Origin: Gammaproteobacteria bacterium
GTDB lineage: Bacteria > Pseudomonadota > Gammaproteobacteria > Steroidobacterales > Steroidobacteraceae
Reading direction: 5' to 3'
Length of the DNA: 40,044 nt
Assembly: GCA_024642505.1 (NCBI GenBank)
Contig: JAHEAZ010000021.1
Coordinates: forward strand, 1-40,044
Each line of letters opens with the position of its first letter. The stretch's first letter is position 1. Positions 5,532-18,011 of the stretch are shown piece after piece. The translations under genes and the position numbers were made by a program. The notes below the pieces were generated by a model. The model saw nothing but the letters and a program-made list of their open reading frames with translations, made no database searches and had not been told where the DNA came from.

Positions 5532-5747
5532 CCCGCGTCAGGTCAATCGATCCCATTCAAGGAATGATAACGAGCCTATAATCGCTTCAATTTCCTACTT
5601 TGTGCTAGTTTGATCCGTAATACCTAGCATATGTCCCCACATTAACGGGAGTATAGTAACTCGTTCGCAACGGCGGTCCCCCGGGGAGCTGGATTTGTTC
5701 CTCCTGGGAGACGACCGGCGTCTATGTACTGTTGGGGGGGGGATTCG
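5532..5747 (+). promoter_or_regulatory. AT-rich intergenic region with candidate promoter and inverted repeat
   Basis: This 216 bp gap is visibly AT-richer than the genes around it. A perfect -10 hexamer TATAAT lies at 5577-5582 with only a weak -35 match (around CATTCA, 5554-5559). A perfect inverted repeat TGCTAG / CTAGCA (5603-5608 and 5624-5629, 15 bp spacer) could be an operator for the lipoprotein gene at 5748. A G-run (about 5732-5742) just before that ATG serves as its ribosome site. No small ORF is convincing here. Confidence 0.4.
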
Positions 5748-6794
5748 ATGAAAAAGCACTCATTCATGCTGGTGCCGGTGATGGCATTAGCTGGCATTCT
5801 GATTGGCTGCAGCAACAAGAAGGCCGAGGAAGCCGCTGCGGCCGCCGCCGCCGCCGCAGCCAACGAGGCAAAGATCGCGGACGCGCTGTCGGCCATCCTG
5901 CCGTCCATGGCAGCTGATTCGAGCGTGATGGACTGGGACGGGACCATGCTGAAGCAGGGCACTGGACCCTACACCTGCATGCCGACCGCGCCGCACCAGG
6001 CGGAAGCCGGACTCAAGTCGCCGATGTGCATGGACGGGCCGTGGATGAACTGGGCACATGCCTGGGAGAACCACGAGATGCCCGAGATCACGTCGCTCGG
6101 CGTGTCGTACATGCTGGCCGGCGACAGTGGCGCCAGCAATATCGATCCGTACGCGACCGAGCAGACGAACGACAACCAGTGGATCGTCGAGGGTCCGCAC
6201 ATGATGATCCTGATGCCCGATCCGGCGATGCTCGAGGGCATCCCCACGGATCCGGCCAACGGCGGTCCCTACGTGATGTGGAAGGGCACGCCGTACGCGC
6301 ACGTGATGGTGCCGGTCAACATTCCGCCCAAGGCTGCCGCGGGTGACCCGATTGCCGATGCGCTGTCCGCGGGCAACGTCGCCATGGCCGCCGACTCGAG
6401 CGTCATGGACTGGGGCATGAAGACCCTGCGCGAGGGCACGGGCCCTTACACCTGCATGCCGACCCCGCCGATGCTGCAGGGCACCGCGCCGATGTGCATG
6501 GACGGGCCCTGGATGAACTGGGCGCACGGGTGGATGACCAAGGGCGACGTCAAGACCGAGGCGCTGGGCATCTCCTACATGCTGGCGGGCGATGAAGGGG
6601 CGAGCAACATCGATCCCTTCGCCGAGGGGCCGACCGACGACAACCAGTGGGTCGTCGAAGGCCCGCATTTGATGCTGATCGTCCCGGATCCGGCGATGCT
6701 GGAAGGCATCACGACGGACTTCAACCGGGGCGGGCCCTACGTGATGTGGAAGGGCACGCCGTACGCGCACGTGATGGTGCCCGTCGCCGACTGA
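5748..6794 (+). CDS. Lipoprotein with two tandem copies of an uncharacterised domain
   Basis: A 348-residue exported lipoprotein: signal peptide with lipobox LIGC (Cys21), then a ten-alanine linker (29-38), then two copies of one domain, about residues 43-190 and 202-346, offset by 156 residues. Each copy contains IADALSA, AADSSVMDW, GTGPYTCMPT, PMCMDGPWMNWAH, a SYMLAGD-GASNIDP block, DNQW-VEGPH, PDPAMLEGI and GGPYVMWKGTPYAHVMVPV. Two cysteines per copy (C77/C94 and C236/C250) may form disulfides. The ATG at 5748 is chosen over 5724 because it begins MKKHS before the hydrophobic core. I do not recognise the family. The WNWAH, GPH and YAHVM residues could bind metal or ligand. A repeat hairpin follows the stop. 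Confidence 0.85.
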   Translation: MKKHSFMLVPVMALAGILIGCSNKKAEEAAAAAAAAAANEAKIADALSAILPSMAADSSVMDWDGTMLKQGTGPYTCMPTAPHQAEAGLKSPMCMDGPWMNWAHAWENHEMPEITSLGVSYMLAGDSGASNIDPYATEQTNDNQWIVEGPHMMILMPDPAMLEGIPTDPANGGPYVMWKGTPYAHVMVPVNIPPKAAAGDPIADALSAGNVAMAADSSVMDWGMKTLREGTGPYTCMPTPPMLQGTAPMCMDGPWMNWAHGWMTKGDVKTEALGISYMLAGDEGASNIDPFAEGPTDDNQWVVEGPHLMLIVPDPAMLEGITTDFNRGGPYVMWKGTPYAHVMVPVAD

Positions 6795-10307: not shown

Positions 10308-11879
10308 TCAGGCCGGTGCGAGGAAGCCTTCGCAGGTCGCGCGGGCCGGCTCCTCTGCGGGAATCGTGACGCAGATCGACTGGACGTTCTTGCGGATGTA
10401 GGCGAGCCCGGCCTCGCGCTCGGATCCCTCGCCCCAGGCAACCAGCTTCTTCTCCAGGCGCTGCAGCTGCCCCTTGGGGCGCTGGTAGAACGCCCTGCCT
10501 TTCTCCAGTTCTCGCACGACAGTGACCGTTTCCGCCTGGATGCGCTCGACGTCGTCGGGCGCCATCTCGAGCAGTCCCGATACGTAATAGGTGCCCCACT
10601 GGAAACGGGTGGCGGGTCCGGTCGCCGCATCATAAGCACGCTTCAACCAGTCGATCGCCGCCTCATTGTTGCCCGCTTCCTGTTCGATGCCTGCAAGGCT
10701 CACCATGAAATAGTAGGGCTGTTCCGACTTGTCGAGCTCAGCCAACAACAGCTGCTTGGCCTGTTCCGTCATGCCGGCCGAATCCAGGACGTTCGAGGCG
10801 GCATTGATGACCGTCTGCCGTTCGTAGACGTCTGTCGTCTGCTCGTCGGCCTTCGCTACCATCGCGTTGATCTCTGCTCTCAGGCCCGGCGAGATCTCCT
10901 TCTCGGCATCGTCGATGCGCTCGAAGCGGATCTTGCCGATCGCCGTATACAGCCGCTCGGTGGCGAACAGACTCTCGTCCTTGGCAAGCCTGTCGAGGAC
11001 GGTCAGGAACTGCGCCTGTAGCGCCGCGCGTTCTTCGCTGCCCGGCGCAGTGATTGCGGTCGTGATCGAAGCGCCGGAAATCAGCACCGGGTAGATGTTC
11101 GCCCTTACCAGCAGCGGATCGTCAAGCAGGCCGTTCACCAGCGACAGCGCGGCCGCCTTCTCGGCATCGGTCAGCGCAACCGGATTCTCCTTGTCCGTGG
11201 ACTGGGCAATGGCCGCCCCGAGAGCGCCCATGCGGAGCATCGAGCGTTCCACAACAGATTCCTCAGGGCAGGCGTCAGCCAGCGCATTGAAGACCGTCTT
11301 CTTGTTGCGTTCTGCAAGCAGCTTCTCGTTCTGCTCCCAGGAGTTATAGGCGATCAGACGGCACTCCCCGGGGGAAAGCTTCACGCCCTCGTCCAGGGTA
11401 CGCAGCAGCAGGGCGGATACCGGCTGCAGGTTGGTCTGCGTCAGGTCGAGGATATTGGCGTAGGCCTGGATGTCGATGCCGCCGGGGATACGCGTGATCT
11501 CCTCACCCGCCGGTGAAAACACCAGCATGGTCGGATAACCCACCACCCCGAACTTCTCGCCAAGCTTCTGGGCGTTCTCCGTGTCGCCATCCAGGTAGAC
11601 CGGCACGAACAGGCGCGAGCGTTCGATGAATTCGCGGCTCTTGAAGACGGTCGCCTTGATTTCGTGGCACGGCGGGCACCAGACCGCGCCCCAGTACAGG
11701 AAGATCGGCTTGTCATTGGCCTTGGCGTAGGCGAAGGCTTCATCGACCGTGCCCTCGAACCAGGCAATTTCCTGGGCCGCGGCGGCATCGGCATCCGCCG
11801 CGGGTGCAGCGGGTTGGCGGCTGCAAGCGGCCAGCAGGGTCGTCACCAGCAGGGGCCAAACTATGTTCAGACGGGTCAT
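10308..11879 (-). CDS. Thioredoxin-fold lipoprotein with long helical C-terminus
   Basis: A 523-residue lipoprotein: lipobox LAAC with Cys19, a low-complexity Pro/Ala linker, then a thioredoxin-like domain at about residues 38-130 with the active site WCPPC (67-71) in GAVWCPPCHEIK and the cis-Pro region VVGYPTMLVFSPAGEEI. Residues 150-500 are helical and look like degenerate tetratricopeptide-type repeats (AIDWLKRAYDAAT and similar). It is expected to be periplasmic and to reduce or isomerise disulfides, or to act in a protein complex. It is transcribed in the same direction as the sulfur-type cluster and starts 124 bp after the rhodanese gene, so co-expression is possible but not certain. 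Confidence 0.85.
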   Translation of the reverse strand: MTRLNIVWPLLVTTLLAACSRQPAAPAADADAAAAQEIAWFEGTVDEAFAYAKANDKPIFLYWGAVWCPPCHEIKATVFKSREFIERSRLFVPVYLDGDTENAQKLGEKFGVVGYPTMLVFSPAGEEITRIPGGIDIQAYANILDLTQTNLQPVSALLLRTLDEGVKLSPGECRLIAYNSWEQNEKLLAERNKKTVFNALADACPEESVVERSMLRMGALGAAIAQSTDKENPVALTDAEKAAALSLVNGLLDDPLLVRANIYPVLISGASITTAITAPGSEERAALQAQFLTVLDRLAKDESLFATERLYTAIGKIRFERIDDAEKEISPGLRAEINAMVAKADEQTTDVYERQTVINAASNVLDSAGMTEQAKQLLLAELDKSEQPYYFMVSLAGIEQEAGNNEAAIDWLKRAYDAATGPATRFQWGTYYVSGLLEMAPDDVERIQAETVTVVRELEKGRAFYQRPKGQLQRLEKKLVAWGEGSEREAGLAYIRKNVQSICVTIPAEEPARATCEGFLAPA

Positions 11880-12003
11880 GGGCTAGTCCTTGGCGTGCGC
11901 GGGCCGCCTCTGTGGCGGCGAATCTTAGTCTTTTCCGCCGCTACAGGAAAACCGGAGCTCGTTGGTGAGAGTTCGAGGATTCGAGACCCGGCACCACTAA
12001 GGT

Positions 12004-12642
12004 TTAACAGCCTTCCCGCTTCTTGCCGCGTGGCGCGACCGGAATGGCAGGACCGGCCACTGGCGCGGCCATCTTGGGCAGCGCCGGCTGGTCGCCGGCA
12101 GCCTCCCCGGCCTTGGTCCGGGCCTGGCCGCCGAAGAAAGTGGCCATGGCGGTGGCGCGCTCGAAACGGGCCTTCTCCCGTGGGTCATCGCTGGCCGATG
12201 GCTCCGGGTAGAGCACCTCGTCGGTCCAGCCGTTCAATCCCAGCAGCACCGCGTAGACCGCCTTGAAGCCTTGCGCGCGCAGCAACATCCAGCCCTGGGC
12301 CGCGTGGATGCCGCCGCCGGAATACAGGACGATTTTCTCCCCCGGCAGCAGTGGGTACTCGGCCAGCCCCGCCAGCGGCACGTTCTCCGCGCCAGGGATG
12401 TGGTACTCCGCGTATTCCTCCGGCGAGCGCAGGTCGAGAAGCCGATAATCGGAGCGGCCTTCGACGATCCATGAGGCCAGCTCAACCGGCGTAACGTGGT
12501 CGACTTCCTGCCCGACGATCATGCCGAGCTCCTGCGCGTCGAGCTTCACGAACGGTCCGCGGTGCGGCTCGCTGAACAGGGCCACTGCGCCGAGCGCCAG
12601 CGCCACGAGTGCCAACCGCGGACCTATAGGCTTGCCGATCAC
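12004..12642 (-). CDS. Membrane-anchored rhodanese-like protein lacking the catalytic Cys
   Basis: A 212-residue protein with an N-terminal signal anchor (residues 9-24) and a rhodanese domain at about 49-145. The motifs are HVTPVELASWI, DYRLLDLRSPEEYAEYHIPGAENVPL, and GEKIVLYSGGGIHAAQGWMLLRAQGF. In active rhodaneses the loop begins with a persulfide-carrying Cys. Here that position reads YSGGGIH, with Ser or Tyr and no Cys. The only Cys of the whole protein is its last residue. The start overlaps the preceding YeeE/YedE gene by ATGA, so it is coupled to the sulfur-type cluster. It may bind sulfur species or partner proteins and not transfer sulfur itself. Confidence 0.82.
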   Translation of the reverse strand: MIGKPIGPRLALVALALGAVALFSEPHRGPFVKLDAQELGMIVGQEVDHVTPVELASWIVEGRSDYRLLDLRSPEEYAEYHIPGAENVPLAGLAEYPLLPGEKIVLYSGGGIHAAQGWMLLRAQGFKAVYAVLLGLNGWTDEVLYPEPSASDDPREKARFERATAMATFFGGQARTKAGEAAGDQPALPKMAAPVAGPAIPVAPRGKKREGC

Positions 12643-13229
12643 TTCGCACCCCCGACCCGGCGTTCGATGAGCGTGGCGCCGTAGAAACCGCCGACGGCGA
12701 CCAGAACCACTGCGAATACCACGACGCCCCAGGGCAGATTGAACGCTTCCGGCAGCGTCAGTGCACCTCGTGCACCGGCATTCACGAAATCCTTGATGGC
12801 CGTATAGGACTCGCCGTACACGATCGTTCCCGCGAAAATGCCGAGTGCGTAGGCCATGCCGTCAACACGACCCGTAGACAACGCCGCGACCGATGTGCCG
12901 GGGCAGTAACCCCCGACGACGAAGCCGACGCCGAGCAGCAACCCGCCCAGGATCTGCGGCCCGAGGTAGGTGGGCACGAGGTAAACGAGGTCGACGTCCA
13001 GCACACCCATCCAGCCCAGGTAGGTCACACCCAGCATCGCAGTCACGATTGCGCTGAACATCACCTTGAAGACTGCCATGTCGTCCAGGTAGAACTGGCT
13101 GACCAGCTTGCGCGCGCTGCCAAAGCCGGCGCGCTCGAGGAAGAAACCGAAGCCGATACCGATGACGAAGGCGATCAGCAACGACATCTCGTCGCCAAAC
13201 ATGCCGTATTTGTAGAGCGGAGCGTTCAT
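12639..13229 (-). CDS. YeeE/YedE family half-transporter (C-terminal type)
   Basis: A 196-residue inner-membrane protein of the YeeE/YedE (sulf_transp) family, which imports thiosulfate or related sulfur compounds. Visible motifs are FGFFLERAGFGSARKLVSQFY and GVGFVVGGYCPGTSVAALSTGRVDG, which contains the conserved pore Cys in the CPGT motif. The ATG at 13229 overlaps the upstream half-transporter gene by ATGA and starts at the expected place. The in-frame extension further upstream is a shadow of that gene. Two short genes, not one long YeeE, encode this transporter; they are probably paired subunits. Confidence 0.88.
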   Translation of the reverse strand: MNAPLYKYGMFGDEMSLLIAFVIGIGFGFFLERAGFGSARKLVSQFYLDDMAVFKVMFSAIVTAMLGVTYLGWMGVLDVDLVYLVPTYLGPQILGGLLLGVGFVVGGYCPGTSVAALSTGRVDGMAYALGIFAGTIVYGESYTAIKDFVNAGARGALTLPEAFNLPWGVVVFAVVLVAVGGFYGATLIERRVGGAK

Positions 13230-13759
13230 CGCCACTGCCACCTCATGAAGTACGCCGTGGCATAGCCGCCGACGAAGACCATCAACATGAAAGCCCAGCT
13301 GCCGGCGTTGAGCAGCGCGCCACCGCTGAGCGCCTGGCCGCTGGTGCAGCCGCGGGCCAGGTGGGCGCCGATAGCCATCAGCATGCCGCCGGTGAAGGCC
13401 GCCGCAAGCCTGGGCCCGTTGCTGACCCGCGGCCCCTTCTCCACCGAGAGACGCACTCGTCCGGCCAGCAAGCCGGAGAACAGTGCGCCGGCCATCACGC
13501 CGAGTACCTCGAATACCAGCCATGCCTTCAGCGGGTGGGTCCCGTCACTCAGGTATCCCTGGTAGTACTCGCTGGCCTGCGCATGCGCAGGTGCGAACAC
13601 GCTCATCAGCCAGGCGACGGTGGAGCTGAATGCGCCAGAGGCCCCGAGGCCGCGGCCCATCAGCACGAACGCTGCCAGCAGCACCAGGCCGAGCCCGACG
13701 CCCGCGAGGTAGGGATTCATGTACGGGCTGTCGCCCGGGCTTGGCTCGTATTCCGACAT
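13226..13759 (-). CDS. YeeE/YedE family half-transporter (N-terminal type)
   Basis: A 177-residue membrane protein with a hydrophobic start after a Pro-rich lead, a non-cytoplasmic segment (SEYYQGYLSDGTHPLKAW) and the family motif MAIGAHLARGCTSGQALSGGALL, with the conserved Cys in GCTSG. It pairs with the next gene as the second half of a YeeE/YedE-type sulfur-compound channel. I chose the ATG at 13759, preceded by GAGGTG at a normal distance. A TTG at 13792 overlapping the NrfD stop as TTGA is a real alternative, adding 11 residues. Confidence 0.85.
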   Translation of the reverse strand: MSEYEPSPGDSPYMNPYLAGVGLGLVLLAAFVLMGRGLGASGAFSSTVAWLMSVFAPAHAQASEYYQGYLSDGTHPLKAWLVFEVLGVMAGALFSGLLAGRVRLSVEKGPRVSNGPRLAAAFTGGMLMAIGAHLARGCTSGQALSGGALLNAGSWAFMLMVFVGGYATAYFMRWQWR

Positions 13760-13788
13760 CAGGTCATCACCTCTATTCAGCAATTCGC

Positions 13789-14718
13789 TCAAGGCCAGAA
13801 ACTCGCCTGGCCAGCGGCCACGACGACGAAGCGCAAGGCGAGCCCGCCACCCATCACCAGCATCGGCGCCACCAGCGTGTGGCCGATTCGACGCGTCGCC
13901 ATCAGCGACTGGATTGCGAGCGGCAGCACGATGCCGAGCCCCACCACCAGTACCCAGAACGCAGCCGTATAGGGCCCGCCCAGTAGCAGCGACGCCGCCT
14001 GCGCCTGTGCCACGCCCGAGGTCGCCAGCCCGATCAGGAACAGCGCAATCAGCGCGAGTTCCGTCAGCAGGAACAGATTGTCCGAGCGCAGCAACGCCGA
14101 CTGCTCGTCCGGGTCGCGCGCGATCATGTGCGCGAACGCCGCGCCGGTGGAAAGGCCGGAGACCAGGAACAGCGGGCCGAGCACGCCGCTGGCCCAGAGC
14201 GGCCGCGCGCCGAGGCTCGATAGCAGTATCCCGGTATAGATACCGAGCCCGACGCCGAAGGTGATGTTGGCCAACACCAGTGCACGGCGTGCGTCCGATT
14301 GTCGCAACCGCCGCGCCAGCGTGCCCAGTGGTGCCCAGGCATCGGCCAGCGCCGGCGGCAGGCCAGCGATGCCCGCCAGCAACAGCACCGGATAGACACC
14401 GATCAGGATCCAGCCACCCCAGGACATCGGCGAGGTCGGCTGGAAGGTCGCATACATGCGCCAGACGTACAGCTTGTGCTCGAGATCAAGGAACAGCGCC
14501 ACCATACCGAGACTGATCAGCACCAGTCCGACCCAGGGCAGCAGCCGCGTGACGCTTGGCCGCTCCGTACCCGGATCGCGGTGCATCAGCCAGCCCGACA
14601 GCACCATCGCGCCCGCGACCCAGCCGCCGAGAAACAGGTAAACCGGGATCTCCCAGCCCCAGACGTGCAGGCTTGGGTCGATCATCGGGTTGTTGCGCGT
14701 GGTCAGCAGCTCCAGCAT
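13789..14718 (-). CDS. NrfD/PsrC family membrane subunit
   Basis: A 309-residue protein with eight to nine membrane segments. The start MLELLTTRNNPMIDPSLHVWGWEIPVYLFLGGWVAGAMVLSGWL is typical of NrfD/PsrC quinone-interacting subunits. Later WRMYATFQPTSPMSWGGWILIGVYPVLLL and SGLSTGAAFAHMIA carry conserved polar residues. It exchanges electrons between the quinone pool and the Fe-S subunit encoded just upstream. The ATG at 14718 lies 4 bp past the ferredoxin stop. It is third in the Mo-enzyme cluster. Confidence 0.9.
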   Translation of the reverse strand: MLELLTTRNNPMIDPSLHVWGWEIPVYLFLGGWVAGAMVLSGWLMHRDPGTERPSVTRLLPWVGLVLISLGMVALFLDLEHKLYVWRMYATFQPTSPMSWGGWILIGVYPVLLLAGIAGLPPALADAWAPLGTLARRLRQSDARRALVLANITFGVGLGIYTGILLSSLGARPLWASGVLGPLFLVSGLSTGAAFAHMIARDPDEQSALLRSDNLFLLTELALIALFLIGLATSGVAQAQAASLLLGGPYTAAFWVLVVGLGIVLPLAIQSLMATRRIGHTLVAPMLVMGGGLALRFVVVAAGQASFWP

Positions 14719-14722
14719 CGAC

Positions 14723-15262
14723 TCATTCCAGGTAGAAGATGCGTGGCCCGGTGCCAGCATCCGGCTTCAGCACGAAGTGCTTGCGACCGGCGACGAGCCG
14801 ACTGACCTCGGATTGCGGATCGTCCAGATCGCCGAAGGTCATGCAGCGTGTCGGGCAGACCTCGACGCAGGCAGGTAGCTGGCCCTTGTCGACGCGGTGA
14901 ATGCAGAAAGTGCACTTGTCTGCATATCCGTCCGGGTGCATGAAGCGCGCGCCATAGGGGCAGGATGCAACGCAGGCCTTGCAGCCGATGCACTTGCCGT
15001 GGTCAACCAGTACGATCTTGCCGTACACGTGCACGTGGCTCGCGCCGGTCGGGCAGCAGGTGACACAGGGCGGGTTGTCGCAGTGGTTGCAGCGCTCGGA
15101 GGTGATCGTCATGCGCAGGTCGGGCATGCGGCCCTCGACGCGCTTGGCAATCCAGTCACGGCAGTAACCGTCCGGAACGTCGTTCTCGGTCTTGCAGGCC
15201 ACTATGCAGTCCATGCAGCCGACGCACTTTGTGGTGTCGATCGCCATGCCGAAGCGCGCCAC
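14723..15262 (-). CDS. Four-cluster [4Fe-4S] ferredoxin subunit (PsrB/TtrB-like)
   Basis: A 179-residue electron-transfer subunit with sixteen ordered cysteines in four groups: CVGCMDCIVAC, CNHCDNPPCVTCCP, CIGCKACVASCP and CTFC...CVEVCP. This is the DMSO reductase-family beta subunit that passes electrons between the Mo subunit and NrfD. It has no Tat signal of its own, so it would be co-exported with the catalytic subunit. I chose the GTG at 15262 because GGGAGAA lies 7 nt upstream. The ATG at 15247 is an alternative. It starts 3 bp after the Mo-subunit stop. Confidence 0.93.
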   Translation of the reverse strand: MARFGMAIDTTKCVGCMDCIVACKTENDVPDGYCRDWIAKRVEGRMPDLRMTITSERCNHCDNPPCVTCCPTGASHVHVYGKIVLVDHGKCIGCKACVASCPYGARFMHPDGYADKCTFCIHRVDKGQLPACVEVCPTRCMTFGDLDDPQSEVSRLVAGRKHFVLKPDAGTGPRIFYLE

Positions 15263-15265
15263 GGA

Positions 15266-17455
15266 TCAGTTCTCCCGTTCGATGGAAACGAAGTTGACGT
15301 TCATACCCGTCCCGCCCATCAGCGGATCGGTCTCGTAGCGCGTGATCAGCTGCGCGTCGCTGGCGCCGACGCCGAAGGCGCTGCGCAGGCCCTTCGCGGT
15401 GTGACCGAAGCCGTGGACCATGTAGACGCAGTCCGGTCGGATCGCCTCCGTCACGCGTACCTTGATCGGGCTGCTGAGCACGTCGTCCTGGTTGCGCAGG
15501 CGGACGTAGTCGCCCGACCTGAGGCCGAGCCGCGCGCCGACACTGGCATTCAGCCACACGTCGTTCTCAGGCATAGCGTCGCGCAGGATCGGATTGGTCT
15601 GTGTGCGGCTGAACGAGTGCACCGGTGCGCGGCCGTAGAGCAGGCGGAAGCTGCCCGGCGGCCCTTCCTTCTGGCGCTGATGGCGCGGGACCGGGTCGAA
15701 GCCGGCCCGCTCCAGCTGCAGGGAGTAGAACTCGACCTTGCCGGAAGGCGTCGGCCATAGGGCCTCGACGCCCTCGTCGAAGAACGCCGGCGCAGGGGTT
15801 CCCTTCACCAGGCCCTTCTCTTTCAGTGTACCGAGGCTCAGTCCCGCGCCCGCGAGGCGGTAATCGAGGTACTCCTCGATGTCCTGCCAGGGGTAGTACT
15901 CGCCGAGGCCGAGCTTGAAGGCCAGCTCGCGGGCAATCCACCAGTTCGGCTTCTGGTCGCCCGGTGGCTCGACAACCGGCTGGCGCAGCGCCACGAAGGG
16001 GTCGCGGAAGTACTCCACGTTCAGCTCGTCGTAGCGCTCGAGGTAAGTCGCCTCCGGCAAGACCACGTCCGCCCAGCCGGCAATCTCGGAGGGAATGACG
16101 TCCACGACGACCAGCAGATCGAGTGCCTGGATAGCCTTGAGGGTTTCCGCCTCGTTCGGCAACGCATGGATCAGGTTGGTCGCATACACGAACCAGCCCT
16201 TGACCGGATATGGCTGACCGCTGATCGTCGCCTCGCGGATGCCGGTACTGATGGTCTCGTGCGCGAACGGGTACTTCTTGCCCGGGTTGTCCACCTTGCC
16301 GCGCCCCGACTTCGGGTATGGCTGGTAGGGGTAGCCGGGCACGTCCATGCTCGACGGGTAGTAGAAGCCGCCCTTGCGGCCCCAACTGCCGAGCAATGCA
16401 TTAAGCAGCGCGATCGCGCGGCTGCGCTGGGTGTCGTCGCCGTACCAGGTGGCGTGGCGTCCAGGATGTACCAGAGTCGCCGGGCGGTGACGTGCCATCT
16501 CGCGTGCCGACTCGCGGATCTTCTCCGGCGGGATGCCCGTTTCCAGGTACGCCCATTCCGGCGTGCGCTCAACGATCTCGGCCTTGAAGTTTTCGAATCC
16601 GAAACCATGCTGTTCGACGAAAGCCTGGTCGTACAGTTCCTCGGTGACGATGACATTCATCCACGCCAGCAACAGCGCGATGTCGCTGCCGGGCTTGACC
16701 GGCAGGTAGTACTTCGCCTTGCTGGCGGCCACCGAGAAGCGCGGATCGGCGACGATCACCGTCGCGCCCTTGCCAAGCGCCTCGGCGAACTCCTGCACCT
16801 GGGTGTTGTGCATGTTCTCGCCGAGGTGCGACCCAATCAGCACGATGCAGCGCGCATTCCTGATGTCCGTTCGTTCGGGCGAGCCAATATCCTCTCCGAA
16901 GGTCAGCAGGAATCCGGCGTCGCGCGGGCCGCGACACTGGGCGAAGGAAGGCGCCGCGATGTTCGGCGTGCCATAGGCTTTGAACGTGTGCTTGAGGAAG
17001 GCGCCACCGATGCCGTGGCTGAACAGCGCCACGGCCTCGGGCCCGTGCTCCACCTTGATCTTCTGCAGCTTCCCGGCGATGTAGTCGAACGCCTCGTCCC
17101 AGGTGACCTCGACCCACTCTTCCCCGCCGCGAGCCTTGCGACGGATCAGTGGCGACTGCAGTCGGTCAGGATCGGTGACGGTGCCGATTCCGCCCGTGCC
17201 GCGCGGACACAGACGGCCGCGTGATAGCGGGTCTTCGGGGTTGCCGGTGATCTTCCATAGCCTGCCGTCGCGCACGTGGGCGATGGCATTGCACTTCCAG
17301 AAGCAGATGTCGCAGTAGGTCGGCACCGCACGCACGGTTCCGGCAGACGCTGCCGCGGTCGCCCCCAGCCGGCGGGGAGAGAGTCCTGCCAGGCTGGCCG
17401 CGCCCAGACCGAGACCAGAGATCTTCAGGAAGCGCCGTCGGGAAATCGTGTTCAT
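15266..17455 (-). CDS. Tat-exported molybdopterin oxidoreductase, polysulfide/thiosulfate reductase type
   Basis: Catalytic subunit of a DMSO reductase-family complex, 729 residues. The Tat signal is SRRRFLKISG. The FS0 cluster ligands are C48, C51, C55 and C83 (CDICFWKC...CPRG). The likely Mo ligand is C174 in SFAQCRGPRDAG, as in PsrA/PhsA/NapA-type enzymes. The size and the partners (four-cluster ferredoxin, NrfD) are those of Psr/Phs complexes. The adjoining YeeE/YedE and rhodanese genes point to a sulfur substrate. Direction (polysulfide or thiosulfate reduction versus oxidation) and exact substrate cannot be read from sequence. It is the first gene of the minus-strand cluster, with a palindrome 28 bp upstream. 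Confidence 0.93.
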   Translation of the reverse strand: MNTISRRRFLKISGLGLGAASLAGLSPRRLGATAAASAGTVRAVPTYCDICFWKCNAIAHVRDGRLWKITGNPEDPLSRGRLCPRGTGGIGTVTDPDRLQSPLIRRKARGGEEWVEVTWDEAFDYIAGKLQKIKVEHGPEAVALFSHGIGGAFLKHTFKAYGTPNIAAPSFAQCRGPRDAGFLLTFGEDIGSPERTDIRNARCIVLIGSHLGENMHNTQVQEFAEALGKGATVIVADPRFSVAASKAKYYLPVKPGSDIALLLAWMNVIVTEELYDQAFVEQHGFGFENFKAEIVERTPEWAYLETGIPPEKIRESAREMARHRPATLVHPGRHATWYGDDTQRSRAIALLNALLGSWGRKGGFYYPSSMDVPGYPYQPYPKSGRGKVDNPGKKYPFAHETISTGIREATISGQPYPVKGWFVYATNLIHALPNEAETLKAIQALDLLVVVDVIPSEIAGWADVVLPEATYLERYDELNVEYFRDPFVALRQPVVEPPGDQKPNWWIARELAFKLGLGEYYPWQDIEEYLDYRLAGAGLSLGTLKEKGLVKGTPAPAFFDEGVEALWPTPSGKVEFYSLQLERAGFDPVPRHQRQKEGPPGSFRLLYGRAPVHSFSRTQTNPILRDAMPENDVWLNASVGARLGLRSGDYVRLRNQDDVLSSPIKVRVTEAIRPDCVYMVHGFGHTAKGLRSAFGVGASDAQLITRYETDPLMGGTGMNVNFVSIEREN

Positions 17456-17482
17456 CGTGGCAGGAACGAAGCCGGGCCATCA

Positions 17483-17500
17483 CATTAGTAAAATCTAATG
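17483..17500. promoter_or_regulatory. Perfect palindrome, candidate operator of the sulfur-type cluster
   Basis: CATTAG-TAAAAT-CTAATG, two perfect 6 bp half-sites around a 6 bp AT spacer, ends 28 bp upstream of the Mo-subunit ATG. On the minus strand a weak promoter could be TTGCGG (17512-17507), 17 bp, ACTAAT (17489-17484), so the palindrome would cover the -10 region, the usual place for a repressor site. The local region (17483-17570) is AT-rich against a GC-rich background. Confidence 0.5.
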
Positions 17501-17645
17501 GGTGCACCGCAACAATGCACCGGTACAATCCGTATGCAGTGCAAAATAACTTTTTTTACAAGGTGTTAGGCGCGTCCACTGGGGTCAGCGCGGCGACTGA
17601 GTGACTGAGGTCACTGACGCGATGGGACTCGAGCTTCGCACCCGA

Positions 17646-18011
17646 CTACTTGCGCCTCAGCAGCTCCGCAAGATCGCCGAAGGCCGTAAACGTCGCGCCC
17701 ACCTGCCTGGCCTCACCGGGCGCCGATGGATCCACGGACCGCGCATGCTCGTTGTCGTGGCAATAGATGCACAGCAGCTCCCAGTTGCTGCCGTCGGCCG
17801 GGTTGTTGTCGTGGTCGTGGTCGCGATGATGCACGGTCAGCTCGCGCAGATTCTCGCGCGTAAACTCGCGGGCGCAGCGACCGCAGATCCAGGGATAGAT
17901 CTTCAGGGCCTGCTCGCGGTAGCCCTGGTCGCGCAGGAGACGATCCCGCTGCGCCTTGGCGACGACCCGGTCGAGGTTGGAGGGGCCAGACTTGGGGTCG
18001 CGGTTGGACAT
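17646..18011 (-). CDS. yajD: HNH endonuclease-fold protein, YajD type
   Basis: A 121-residue cytoplasmic protein. A basic N-terminal helix (NLDRVVAKAQRDRLLRDQGYREQALKIYP) leads to a zinc pair ICGRC, the HNH core HHRDHDHDNNP, and a second zinc pair LCIYC with HDNEH. The match to E. coli YajD (about 115 residues) is good over the full length. The fold is that of HNH nucleases. The cellular role of YajD is not established. The ATG at 18011 gives the family length; the longer in-frame extension is a shadow of the lipoprotein gene on the other strand. Confidence 0.9.
   Translation of the reverse strand: MSNRDPKSGPSNLDRVVAKAQRDRLLRDQGYREQALKIYPWICGRCAREFTRENLRELTVHHRDHDHDNNPADGSNWELLCIYCHDNEHARSVDPSAPGEARQVGATFTAFGDLAELLRRK

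Follow-up and report, generated by a model that had tools for sequence, protein, structure and literature searches.

A Psr-type respiratory gene unit with a split YeeE/YedE transporter and a rhodanese-fold protein that ends in a cysteine

How is sulfane sulfur, which is insoluble or toxic, presented to Psr-type molybdenum (Mo) enzymes, and how does it pass the membrane? This open question is raised in compact form by a 40,044-nucleotide stretch of DNA (hereafter the window) from a gammaproteobacterium of the Steroidobacteraceae (assembly GCA_024642505.1, contig JAHEAZ010000021.1). On its minus strand, six contiguous genes (17455–12004) encode a Psr-type complex of Mo, iron-sulfur (FeS), and NrfD subunits, two YeeE/YedE transporter halves (YeeE1 and YeeE2), and a rhodanese-fold membrane protein. 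This last protein lacks the catalytic loop cysteine and carries a cysteine at its C terminus instead, and in some relatives it is fused to YeeE2. We read the unit, tentatively, as a polysulfide or sulfane-sulfur oxidoreductase with a tethered persulfide arm that would serve both the Mo site and a sulfur channel, and we give this reading a little less than an even chance.

Conservation and spread of the six-gene unit

A preliminary description of the window had proposed six tightly spaced minus-strand genes, and the coordinates of the open reading frames (ORFs) and their Pfam families bear this out: neighboring genes are separated by −4 to 29 bp. The Mo-ligand residue C174 and the transporter motifs GCTSG and GYCPGT named there are likewise all present in the window proteins. 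Gene starts were picked from an ORF listing; ORFs in relatives were called mechanically, and their starts often lie too far upstream.

Does this assembly recur in other genomes? We scanned a genome collection with an alignment of the Mo subunit and took the best 80 of 574 confirmed relatives as comparison loci (L numbers), so the conservation counts are valid for the closest part of the Mo family. Judging from record titles, all of these loci but L066 are metagenome-assembled or uncultured. Partner genes were sought with profiles started from the window proteins, and the six parts were counted in the 55 loci with 4.5 kb or more of sequence beyond the Mo gene, leaving out 25 whose contigs end sooner. 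All six parts were present in 46 of the 55 loci. Thus, the gene assembly is not a matter of chance, and the transporter and rhodanese-fold genes stay beside the Mo gene, a point that had been posed beforehand as a test of the unit. The rhodanese-fold protein is a separate ORF with a tail cysteine in 31 of the full loci and is fused to YeeE2 in the other 15; among those counted as separate, L064 is in truth a fusion whose frame is broken. Record titles place the full units under nine phylum labels: Acidobacteriota and Myxococcota with eight loci each, Ignavibacteriota with seven, Bacteroidota with six, Verrucomicrobiota with five, Calditrichota with three, Chlorobiota with two, and Gemmatimonadota and Armatimonadota with one each; five loci bear no label. 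As for the nine incomplete loci, both YeeE halves accompany a long multi-domain rhodanese in L104, L109, L112, and L113; both halves are present with no rhodanese detected in L105 and L114; and no YeeE half lies nearby in L097, L107, and L110, the second of which has a multi-domain rhodanese.

How does the unit behave among the closest genomes (G numbers)? One genome of the same genus, G001, carries the rhodanese-fold, YeeE2, and YeeE1 genes and part of the NrfD gene at a contig end, at ~80% DNA identity to the window. Another, G005 (~74% complete), has the lipoprotein gene that lies beyond the unit in the window, then ~1.2 kb, then the next conserved gene, with the six-gene unit not between them. 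From these two layouts, the unit appears to be gained or lost as a block that ends before the lipoprotein gene. A clear Mo ortholog was found in 1 of 59 relatives, a Mo-based count that understates the genus because G001 carries unit genes at a contig end. The Mo subunit of the window shares 75% identity with that of an acidobacterial metagenome-assembled genome (L060) but only 53% with the nearest one found in its own order (G055), a pattern suggestive of transfer between phyla. We considered whether the window might be a foreign contig in its metagenome-assembled genome and rejected this, since the adjoining symporter is 82% identical to that of G001, which itself carries part of the unit.

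The rhodanese-fold protein and its terminal cysteine

What kind of protein closes the unit? A Pfam match and the top Foldseek matches, which are rhodanese-type (best E 7.4e-07), agree on a rhodanese fold. The only cysteine of the window protein is its last residue, C212 (tail ...APRGKKREGC), and the position of the catalytic loop cysteine is taken by S108. The preliminary description had called the protein a cysteine-less rhodanese, which needs correcting: the loop cysteine is lost, but C212 ends a tail predicted to be disordered, and a cysteine at or near the C terminus predominates among relatives. For a count that is neutral with respect to the tail, the search profile was limited to the rhodanese domain, and we collected ORFs on the Mo strand up to 6.5 kb downstream of the Mo gene, in the window and the compared loci. 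The resulting 67 ORFs comprise 3 that run off their contigs, 7 multi-domain proteins, and 57 complete single-domain proteins, of which 54 have a cysteine among the last three residues. The loop position in these 54 is serine in 39, glycine in 5, alanine in 4, cysteine in 2, aspartate in 2, threonine in 1, and asparagine in 1, so that 52 lack a loop cysteine. One of the three exceptions comes from the broken L064 gene, being its leading fragment, while the trailing fragment ends in EGC; the other two (L073 and L099) are small ordinary rhodaneses with a loop cysteine, in loci that also hold a tail-cysteine protein. The seven multi-domain rhodaneses have a loop cysteine in at least one domain and no tail cysteine. 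Loop and tail cysteines are therefore nearly mutually exclusive. Among the partner proteins, a cysteine within the last three residues occurs in 0/94 Mo, 1/88 FeS, 0/80 NrfD, 1/70 YeeE1, and 1/52 unfused YeeE2 sequences, and the lone YeeE2 case (L045) also ends in EGC.

A tail cysteine is also found where the gene is fused or displaced. The fused protein of L084 matches Sulf_transp as well as Rhodanese in Pfam. The fused rhodanese domain of L111, L117, L120, L121, L123, and L125 (mostly Myxococcota) reaches a score of only 71–95 bits, and these proteins retain a GGGC tail, as if the tail mattered more than the domain. A carrier profile run against 274 genomes of the class gave six matches at E <= 1e-20, five of them in bearers of the Mo clade (the window's genome, G119, G191, G252, and G261) and the sixth a weak match to a 155-residue frame in G076. 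In G119, the tail-cysteine protein ends in EGC although ~23 kb of their shared contig separate its gene from the Mo gene.

An AlphaFold2 model of the window protein has an N-terminal helix (residues 7–23), a rhodanese domain with predicted local distance difference test (pLDDT) values of 92–96, a helix at 154–169, and a tail whose last ~30 residues fall to pLDDT ~47–63. The fused protein of L084, from Verrucomicrobia, gives the same picture of domain and tail after a YeeE half and one extra helix, and Foldseek again returns rhodaneses; in both models, low confidence is consistent with a disordered tail. On which side of the membrane does the domain lie? Among 58 proteins (one a fragment), lysine and arginine residues are more numerous before the anchor than after it in 35, equal in 11, and fewer in 12, and five proteins from the class of the window (L041, L042, L045, L046, and L047) have a lipobox pattern. 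The domain is likely periplasmic. A role of the terminal cysteine as a sorting or lipidation signal seems unlikely to us, because no membrane segment follows it, it is present in fused and separate forms alike, and the lipobox members have an extra N-terminal cysteine. SoxYZ and DsrC are swinging-arm carriers in which the reactive cysteine ends a flexible C-terminal arm. The tail-cysteine protein resembles them in having a terminal, putatively reactive cysteine on a flexible arm and differs in its unrelated fold; Pfam and NCBIfam scans of the window protein returned no SoxY model. Naming such a protein simply "rhodanese" would mislead.

The Mo enzyme, the transporter, and the direction of sulfur flow

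To which enzyme lineage does the Mo subunit belong? It matches Thermus thermophilus PsrA (2vpw) over its full length (736 bits, residues 5–727), the next matches in the PDB being acetylene hydratase (222 bits) and ArrA (149 bits). In a tree of 107 rows, one clade gathers 88, namely the window, the 80 loci, and seven further rows from the window's class; its value in the Shimodaira–Hasegawa-like approximate likelihood ratio test (SH-aLRT) is 97, and T. thermophilus PsrA is the next to join it (SH-aLRT 99). Outside this clade stand a TtrA-like row and the PhsA of an Escherichia coli plasmid, which groups with two rows from the window's class (SH-aLRT 91). This was a quick tree, midpoint-rooted for drawing, in which long reference branches and a long-branch warning make the deeper joins unsure. 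The cysteines C48, C51, C55, and C83, which form the [4Fe-4S] set, and the Mo ligand C174 are invariant in eight aligned Mo sequences; a pattern of the AQCRGPR type occurs in 76 of the 84 Mo ORFs scoring above 1,000 bits; and Fer4_11 and NrfD matches in Pfam identify the FeS and membrane subunits of a Psr-type complex. An ArrA-type enzyme was rejected on the scores given above, and a TtrA-type enzyme on its score and on the position of the one TtrA-like row. Family searches among class members gave 0/229 for PhsA and 0/143 for ArrA, no control matching in either search, and 1/143, under the cut-off, for TtrA. These comparisons place the Mo subunit in the Thermus-type Psr lineage (PsrA/PhsA/SrrA), and the complex can be called PsrABC-like, as first proposed. 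Placement in a family with a non-sulfur substrate had been posed beforehand as the other test, and the tree favors no such family among references that comprise the plasmid PhsA, the TtrA-like row, and 2vpw but not Wolinella PsrA, Salmonella PhsA, SrrA, ArrA, or SoeA.

Could the enzyme be a thiosulfate reductase? Thiosulfate would then be split into sulfite and sulfide, the YeeE pair would move thiosulfate or sulfite, and the tail protein would take up the sulfane sulfur. The NCBIfam equivalog profile for PhsA does match the Mo subunit (513.6 bits), the PDB labels the Thermus enzyme a thiosulfate reductase, and TsuA, a full-length YeeE relative, is reported to carry thiosulfate (PMC11582611). 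The match of 514 bits nevertheless stays under the curated PhsA cut-off of 694; the plasmid PhsA of E. coli is ~32–33% identical and falls outside the Mo clade; and the plasmid locus has, by annotation, a cytochrome b and not an NrfD as third subunit. We consider thiosulfate reduction unlikely.

What would the two YeeE halves contribute? In Pfam, YeeE1 matches residues 177–309 of the Sulf_transp model and YeeE2 residues 2–147, that is, the C-terminal and the N-terminal half, respectively, so the two should together form one transporter. The GCTSG motif was found in 66 of 70 matched YeeE1 ORFs and G[YFL]CPGT in 68 of 69 matched YeeE2 ORFs; a Phmmer search of the PDB with YeeE2 alone gave no match. 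The split transporter that the preliminary description saw within the unit, each half keeping its own cysteine motif, is supported in a PmpAB-like form and recurs in the 46 full loci. The unfused YeeE2 of L045 (4520–5440) has a tail of its own ending in EGDEGC, though a separate tail-cysteine protein is present in the same locus. Split YeeE pairs are reported as importers of zero-valent sulfur (PMC10812762), and a heterodimer has been proposed for PmpA and PmpB, with one cysteine in each and the matching cysteine of TsuA being indispensable there (PMC11582611).

Another possibility is selenium respiration, in which a selenite or selenium-sulfur species would be reduced as by SrrABC, with a YedE-type selenium transporter and rhodanese-type selenium carriers. 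SrrA falls in the PsrA/PhsA/SrrA lineage as well (PMC10100899), the srr operon includes a rhodanese-domain protein (PMC12481199), and YedE selenium profiles match weakly. These YeeE matches are far under the cut-off, however; no SrrD-type chaperone was found in a search confined to the six genes; and SrrA itself was not placed in the tree. This explanation seems very unlikely to us.

How might the parts work together? Mo, FeS, and NrfD families of this kind make up quinone-coupled periplasmic enzymes, and a YeeE pair is a cysteine-lined path for sulfur. The six genes would accordingly encode a single respiratory unit of the inner membrane. With the Mo subunit exported by twin-arginine translocation (Tat), the Mo, FeS, and NrfD proteins would form a quinone-coupled oxidoreductase of the Thermus PsrABC type that acts on sulfane sulfur in the periplasm; its likeliest reaction would be reductive, yielding sulfide from polysulfide or from sulfane sulfur bound to protein. 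A single sulfur channel would be built jointly by YeeE1 and YeeE2. Beside YeeE2, or fused to it, the rhodanese-fold protein would be held in the membrane with its domain in the periplasm; its active-site loop would no longer be catalytic, and the C-terminal cysteine on its flexible tail of ~30 residues would hold a persulfide and swing between the cysteine-lined channel and the Mo site. A precedent comes from the Caldithrix ergothioneine synthase, in which Cys1074 and the near-terminal Cys1135 are essential and are thought to relay sulfur to a Mo site with bis-molybdopterin guanine dinucleotide (PMC9516567). Because the tethered tail cysteine looks like a sulfur-shuttling arm, and with this precedent, we favor persulfide carriage between channel and Mo site together with sulfane-sulfur reduction; we also count in its favor a MobA-like gene among the neighbors in 15 of 91 sources. 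The wider proposition is that a rhodanese fold was converted into a tethered swinging-arm carrier, giving up its loop cysteine as the C-terminal cysteine took over, and that a single respiratory relay machine, found in about nine phyla, hands sulfane sulfur directly between a channel in the membrane and a Mo active site. We regard this as possible and advance it with somewhat more doubt than assent.

Sulfur might also flow the other way. The Mo complex would then oxidize sulfide to sulfane sulfur on the tail cysteine and pass the electrons to quinone, while the YeeE pair would import the sulfur, to be assimilated, detoxified, or oxidized further. Such a direction suits the reports of YeeE-family proteins as importers (PMC11582611, PMC10812762), the TusA acceptor encoded in the genome (the sole TusA match, on another contig), and the several record titles that name soil, groundwater, or a lake, not classical sulfur reducers. 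It sits less well with the nearest relatives whose function is on record, PsrA and PhsA, which are listed as reductases (PMC10100899). Nor did SoxY or DsrA give a match in the window's own genome, in searches where the SoxY controls were silent and no DsrA control passed the cut-off. On balance, we think the oxidative direction rather improbable.

Does the tail protein need to be a turnover carrier at all? It might instead supply the sulfido ligand of the Mo site, in maturation or repair. Tat-exported enzymes mature in the cytoplasm, whereas the tail protein looks periplasmic, and a maturation role leaves the fusion to a transporter half unexplained, so that we see scarcely any likelihood in it. 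Sulfurtransferases dedicated to Mo cofactors do exist, and FdhD is one that delivers sulfur in this way. XdhC is another (PMC9516567).

Several observations count against the polysulfide-reducing relay that we prefer. The tail-cysteine protein was found in none of the ten named Pseudomonadota loci (L101, L104–L107, L109, L110, and L112–L114, the contigs of L101 and L106 being short), which form one clade in the tree; six of them (L101, L104, L107, L109, L112, and L113) carry two- or three-domain rhodaneses with a loop cysteine within 6.5 kb instead. L097 has neither the carrier nor the YeeE halves nearby. The charge pattern indicates a periplasmic domain in a majority only (35/58), and the window protein itself has one lysine or arginine before its anchor and two after it; the structure models cover single chains and are silent on complexes. 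The PDB label of the Thermus enzyme, noted above, names another substrate, and we know of no biochemistry for any member of the Mo clade. Finally, YeeE neighbors are usually read as a sign of sulfur import, which fits oxidative or assimilatory flow equally well.

Gene layout, neighboring genes, and known systems

Table 1. Genes of the unit and adjacent features (window coordinates)
Feature	Coordinates	Strand	Remarks
Mo catalytic subunit, 729 aa	15266..17455	-	Assigned to Thermus-type PsrA clade; Pfam Molybdopterin; Tat-type start SRRRFLK; C48, C51, C55, C83; C174
Multi-[4Fe-4S] ferredoxin subunit, PsrB-like, 179 aa, GTG start	14723..15262	-	Pfam Fer4_11
NrfD/PsrC-like quinone-reactive membrane subunit	13789..14718	-	Pfam NrfD
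YeeE half 1 (YeeE1), motif GCTSG	13226..13759	-	Pfam Sulf_transp, C-terminal half; ATG 13759 preferred over TTG 13792
YeeE half 2 (YeeE2), motif GYCPGT	12639..13229	-	Pfam Sulf_transp, N-terminal half
Membrane-anchored rhodanese-fold protein, S108 at loop position, C212 C-terminal on tail predicted as disordered	12004..12642	-	Pfam Rhodanese
Thioredoxin-fold lipoprotein, outside unit	10308..11879	-	Pfam Thioredoxin_7; 124 bp beyond rhodanese-like gene
Inverted repeat, candidate operator	17501..17521	-	Between upstream gene and Mo start

Where does the unit end, and what surrounds it? The thioredoxin-fold lipoprotein gene lies where the preliminary description had put it, but it lies outside the unit: the gene stands alone in G005, is separated from the unit by an ORF in G001, and had no match in 90 other loci. 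The separating ORF (2524–4611 of L139, from G001) is long and by eye resembles a subtilisin-type protease. Just upstream of the Mo gene, the inverted repeat reads GGTGCATTG-TTG-CGGTGCACC and is perhaps a regulator site; the terminator-like scan that yielded it found 4 such repeats against 3.0 expected in shuffled sequence. No sigma-70-like promoter was found within 11850–17700. Elsewhere in the window, what by eye looks like a lipoprotein is encoded at 5724–6794, and a unit of ~100 residues (SSVMDWD/SSVMDWG...GTGPYTCMPT) occurs in it twice.

Flanking families were defined by clustering over the 91 sources, each cluster being named by one Pfam-checked representative, and some rows look like stray frames. 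Besides the MobA-like genes already counted, these families include MerR regulators (23 loci), cytochrome b or multihaem cytochrome c proteins (18), OMPP1/FadL-type outer-membrane proteins (16), Rieske proteins (8), and ArsR regulators (5). The MerR gene lies upstream of the Mo gene in many Ignavibacteria and Bacteroidetes loci. Near the Mo unit, a protein combining cytochrome b with a long multihaem c portion is encoded in L058 (7146–9911, Pfam checked), L064 (16063–18840), L080 (6955–9903), and others of the 18 loci, and the Rieske gene adjoins it in its eight loci; this cytochrome is possibly an electron partner of the unit. The gene for the OMPP1/FadL-type protein, which could admit hydrophobic sulfur, lies close upstream of the Mo gene in L062, L064–L067, L078, L079, and L087 (Pfam checked for L067).

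Does any known system already combine these parts? The Thermus PsrABC complex (2vpw–2vpz), likewise composed of Mo, FeS, and NrfD subunits, has the Mo subunit that the window protein matches at full length and that forms the nearest reference branch; it was compared at the level of the enzyme, and the window complex is coupled to YeeE halves and a tail-cysteine rhodanese-fold protein. In Wolinella, Sud is a soluble, periplasmic rhodanese-fold protein with a loop cysteine that hands polysulfide sulfur to the Psr enzyme. The rhodanese profile matches 1qxn, listed as "sulfide dehydrogenase," which we take to be Sud; in contrast to Sud, the carrier described here has no loop cysteine, ends in a cysteine, and is held by a membrane anchor or by fusion to a transporter half. 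The split transporters PmpAB and YedE1E2 also consist of two half-proteins with one conserved cysteine each (PMC11582611, PMC10812762). Their halves have ~130 residues and lie beside a persulfide dioxygenase, whereas the window halves have ~177 and 196 residues and lie beside a respiratory complex, and 15 of 55 loci have YeeE2 fused to a rhodanese domain. The TsuA–TsuB fusion of Spirochaeta thermophila (8j4c, 8k1r) joins, by its entry names, a YeeE protein to a sulfur-handling domain, which is SirA/TusA-like there and a probably periplasmic rhodanese fold with a tail cysteine here. The psr operon of Desulfurivibrio, with a signal-bearing sulfurtransferase of three rhodanese domains, resembles the Pseudomonadota variant seen among our loci; excerpts of its description mention neither a tail-cysteine carrier nor YeeE halves for the operon (PMC12142623). 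The YTD cluster (YedE, TusA, DsrE) also pairs a YeeE/YedE transporter with sulfur-transfer proteins, but its partners are TusA and DsrE-like proteins, with no Mo enzyme in the portions of the accounts that describe it (PMC12998232, PMC13047784); TusA and DsrE are absent from the six genes. No description of the six-gene unit or of the tail cysteine was found in the open-licence literature, the scope of the search leaving subscription papers aside, and the view that the assembly matches no named system stands within that literature. We therefore file the unit as a variant of PsrABC with a new type of accessory carrier.

What would such a unit mean for sulfur biology? By placing enzyme, channel, and carrier in one compact set of genes with a single conserved tail cysteine, it makes the question of sulfane-sulfur delivery testable. 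The unit could also serve as a marker of sulfur respiration in Ignavibacteria, Acidobacteria, Opitutaceae, Myxococcota, and similar groups.

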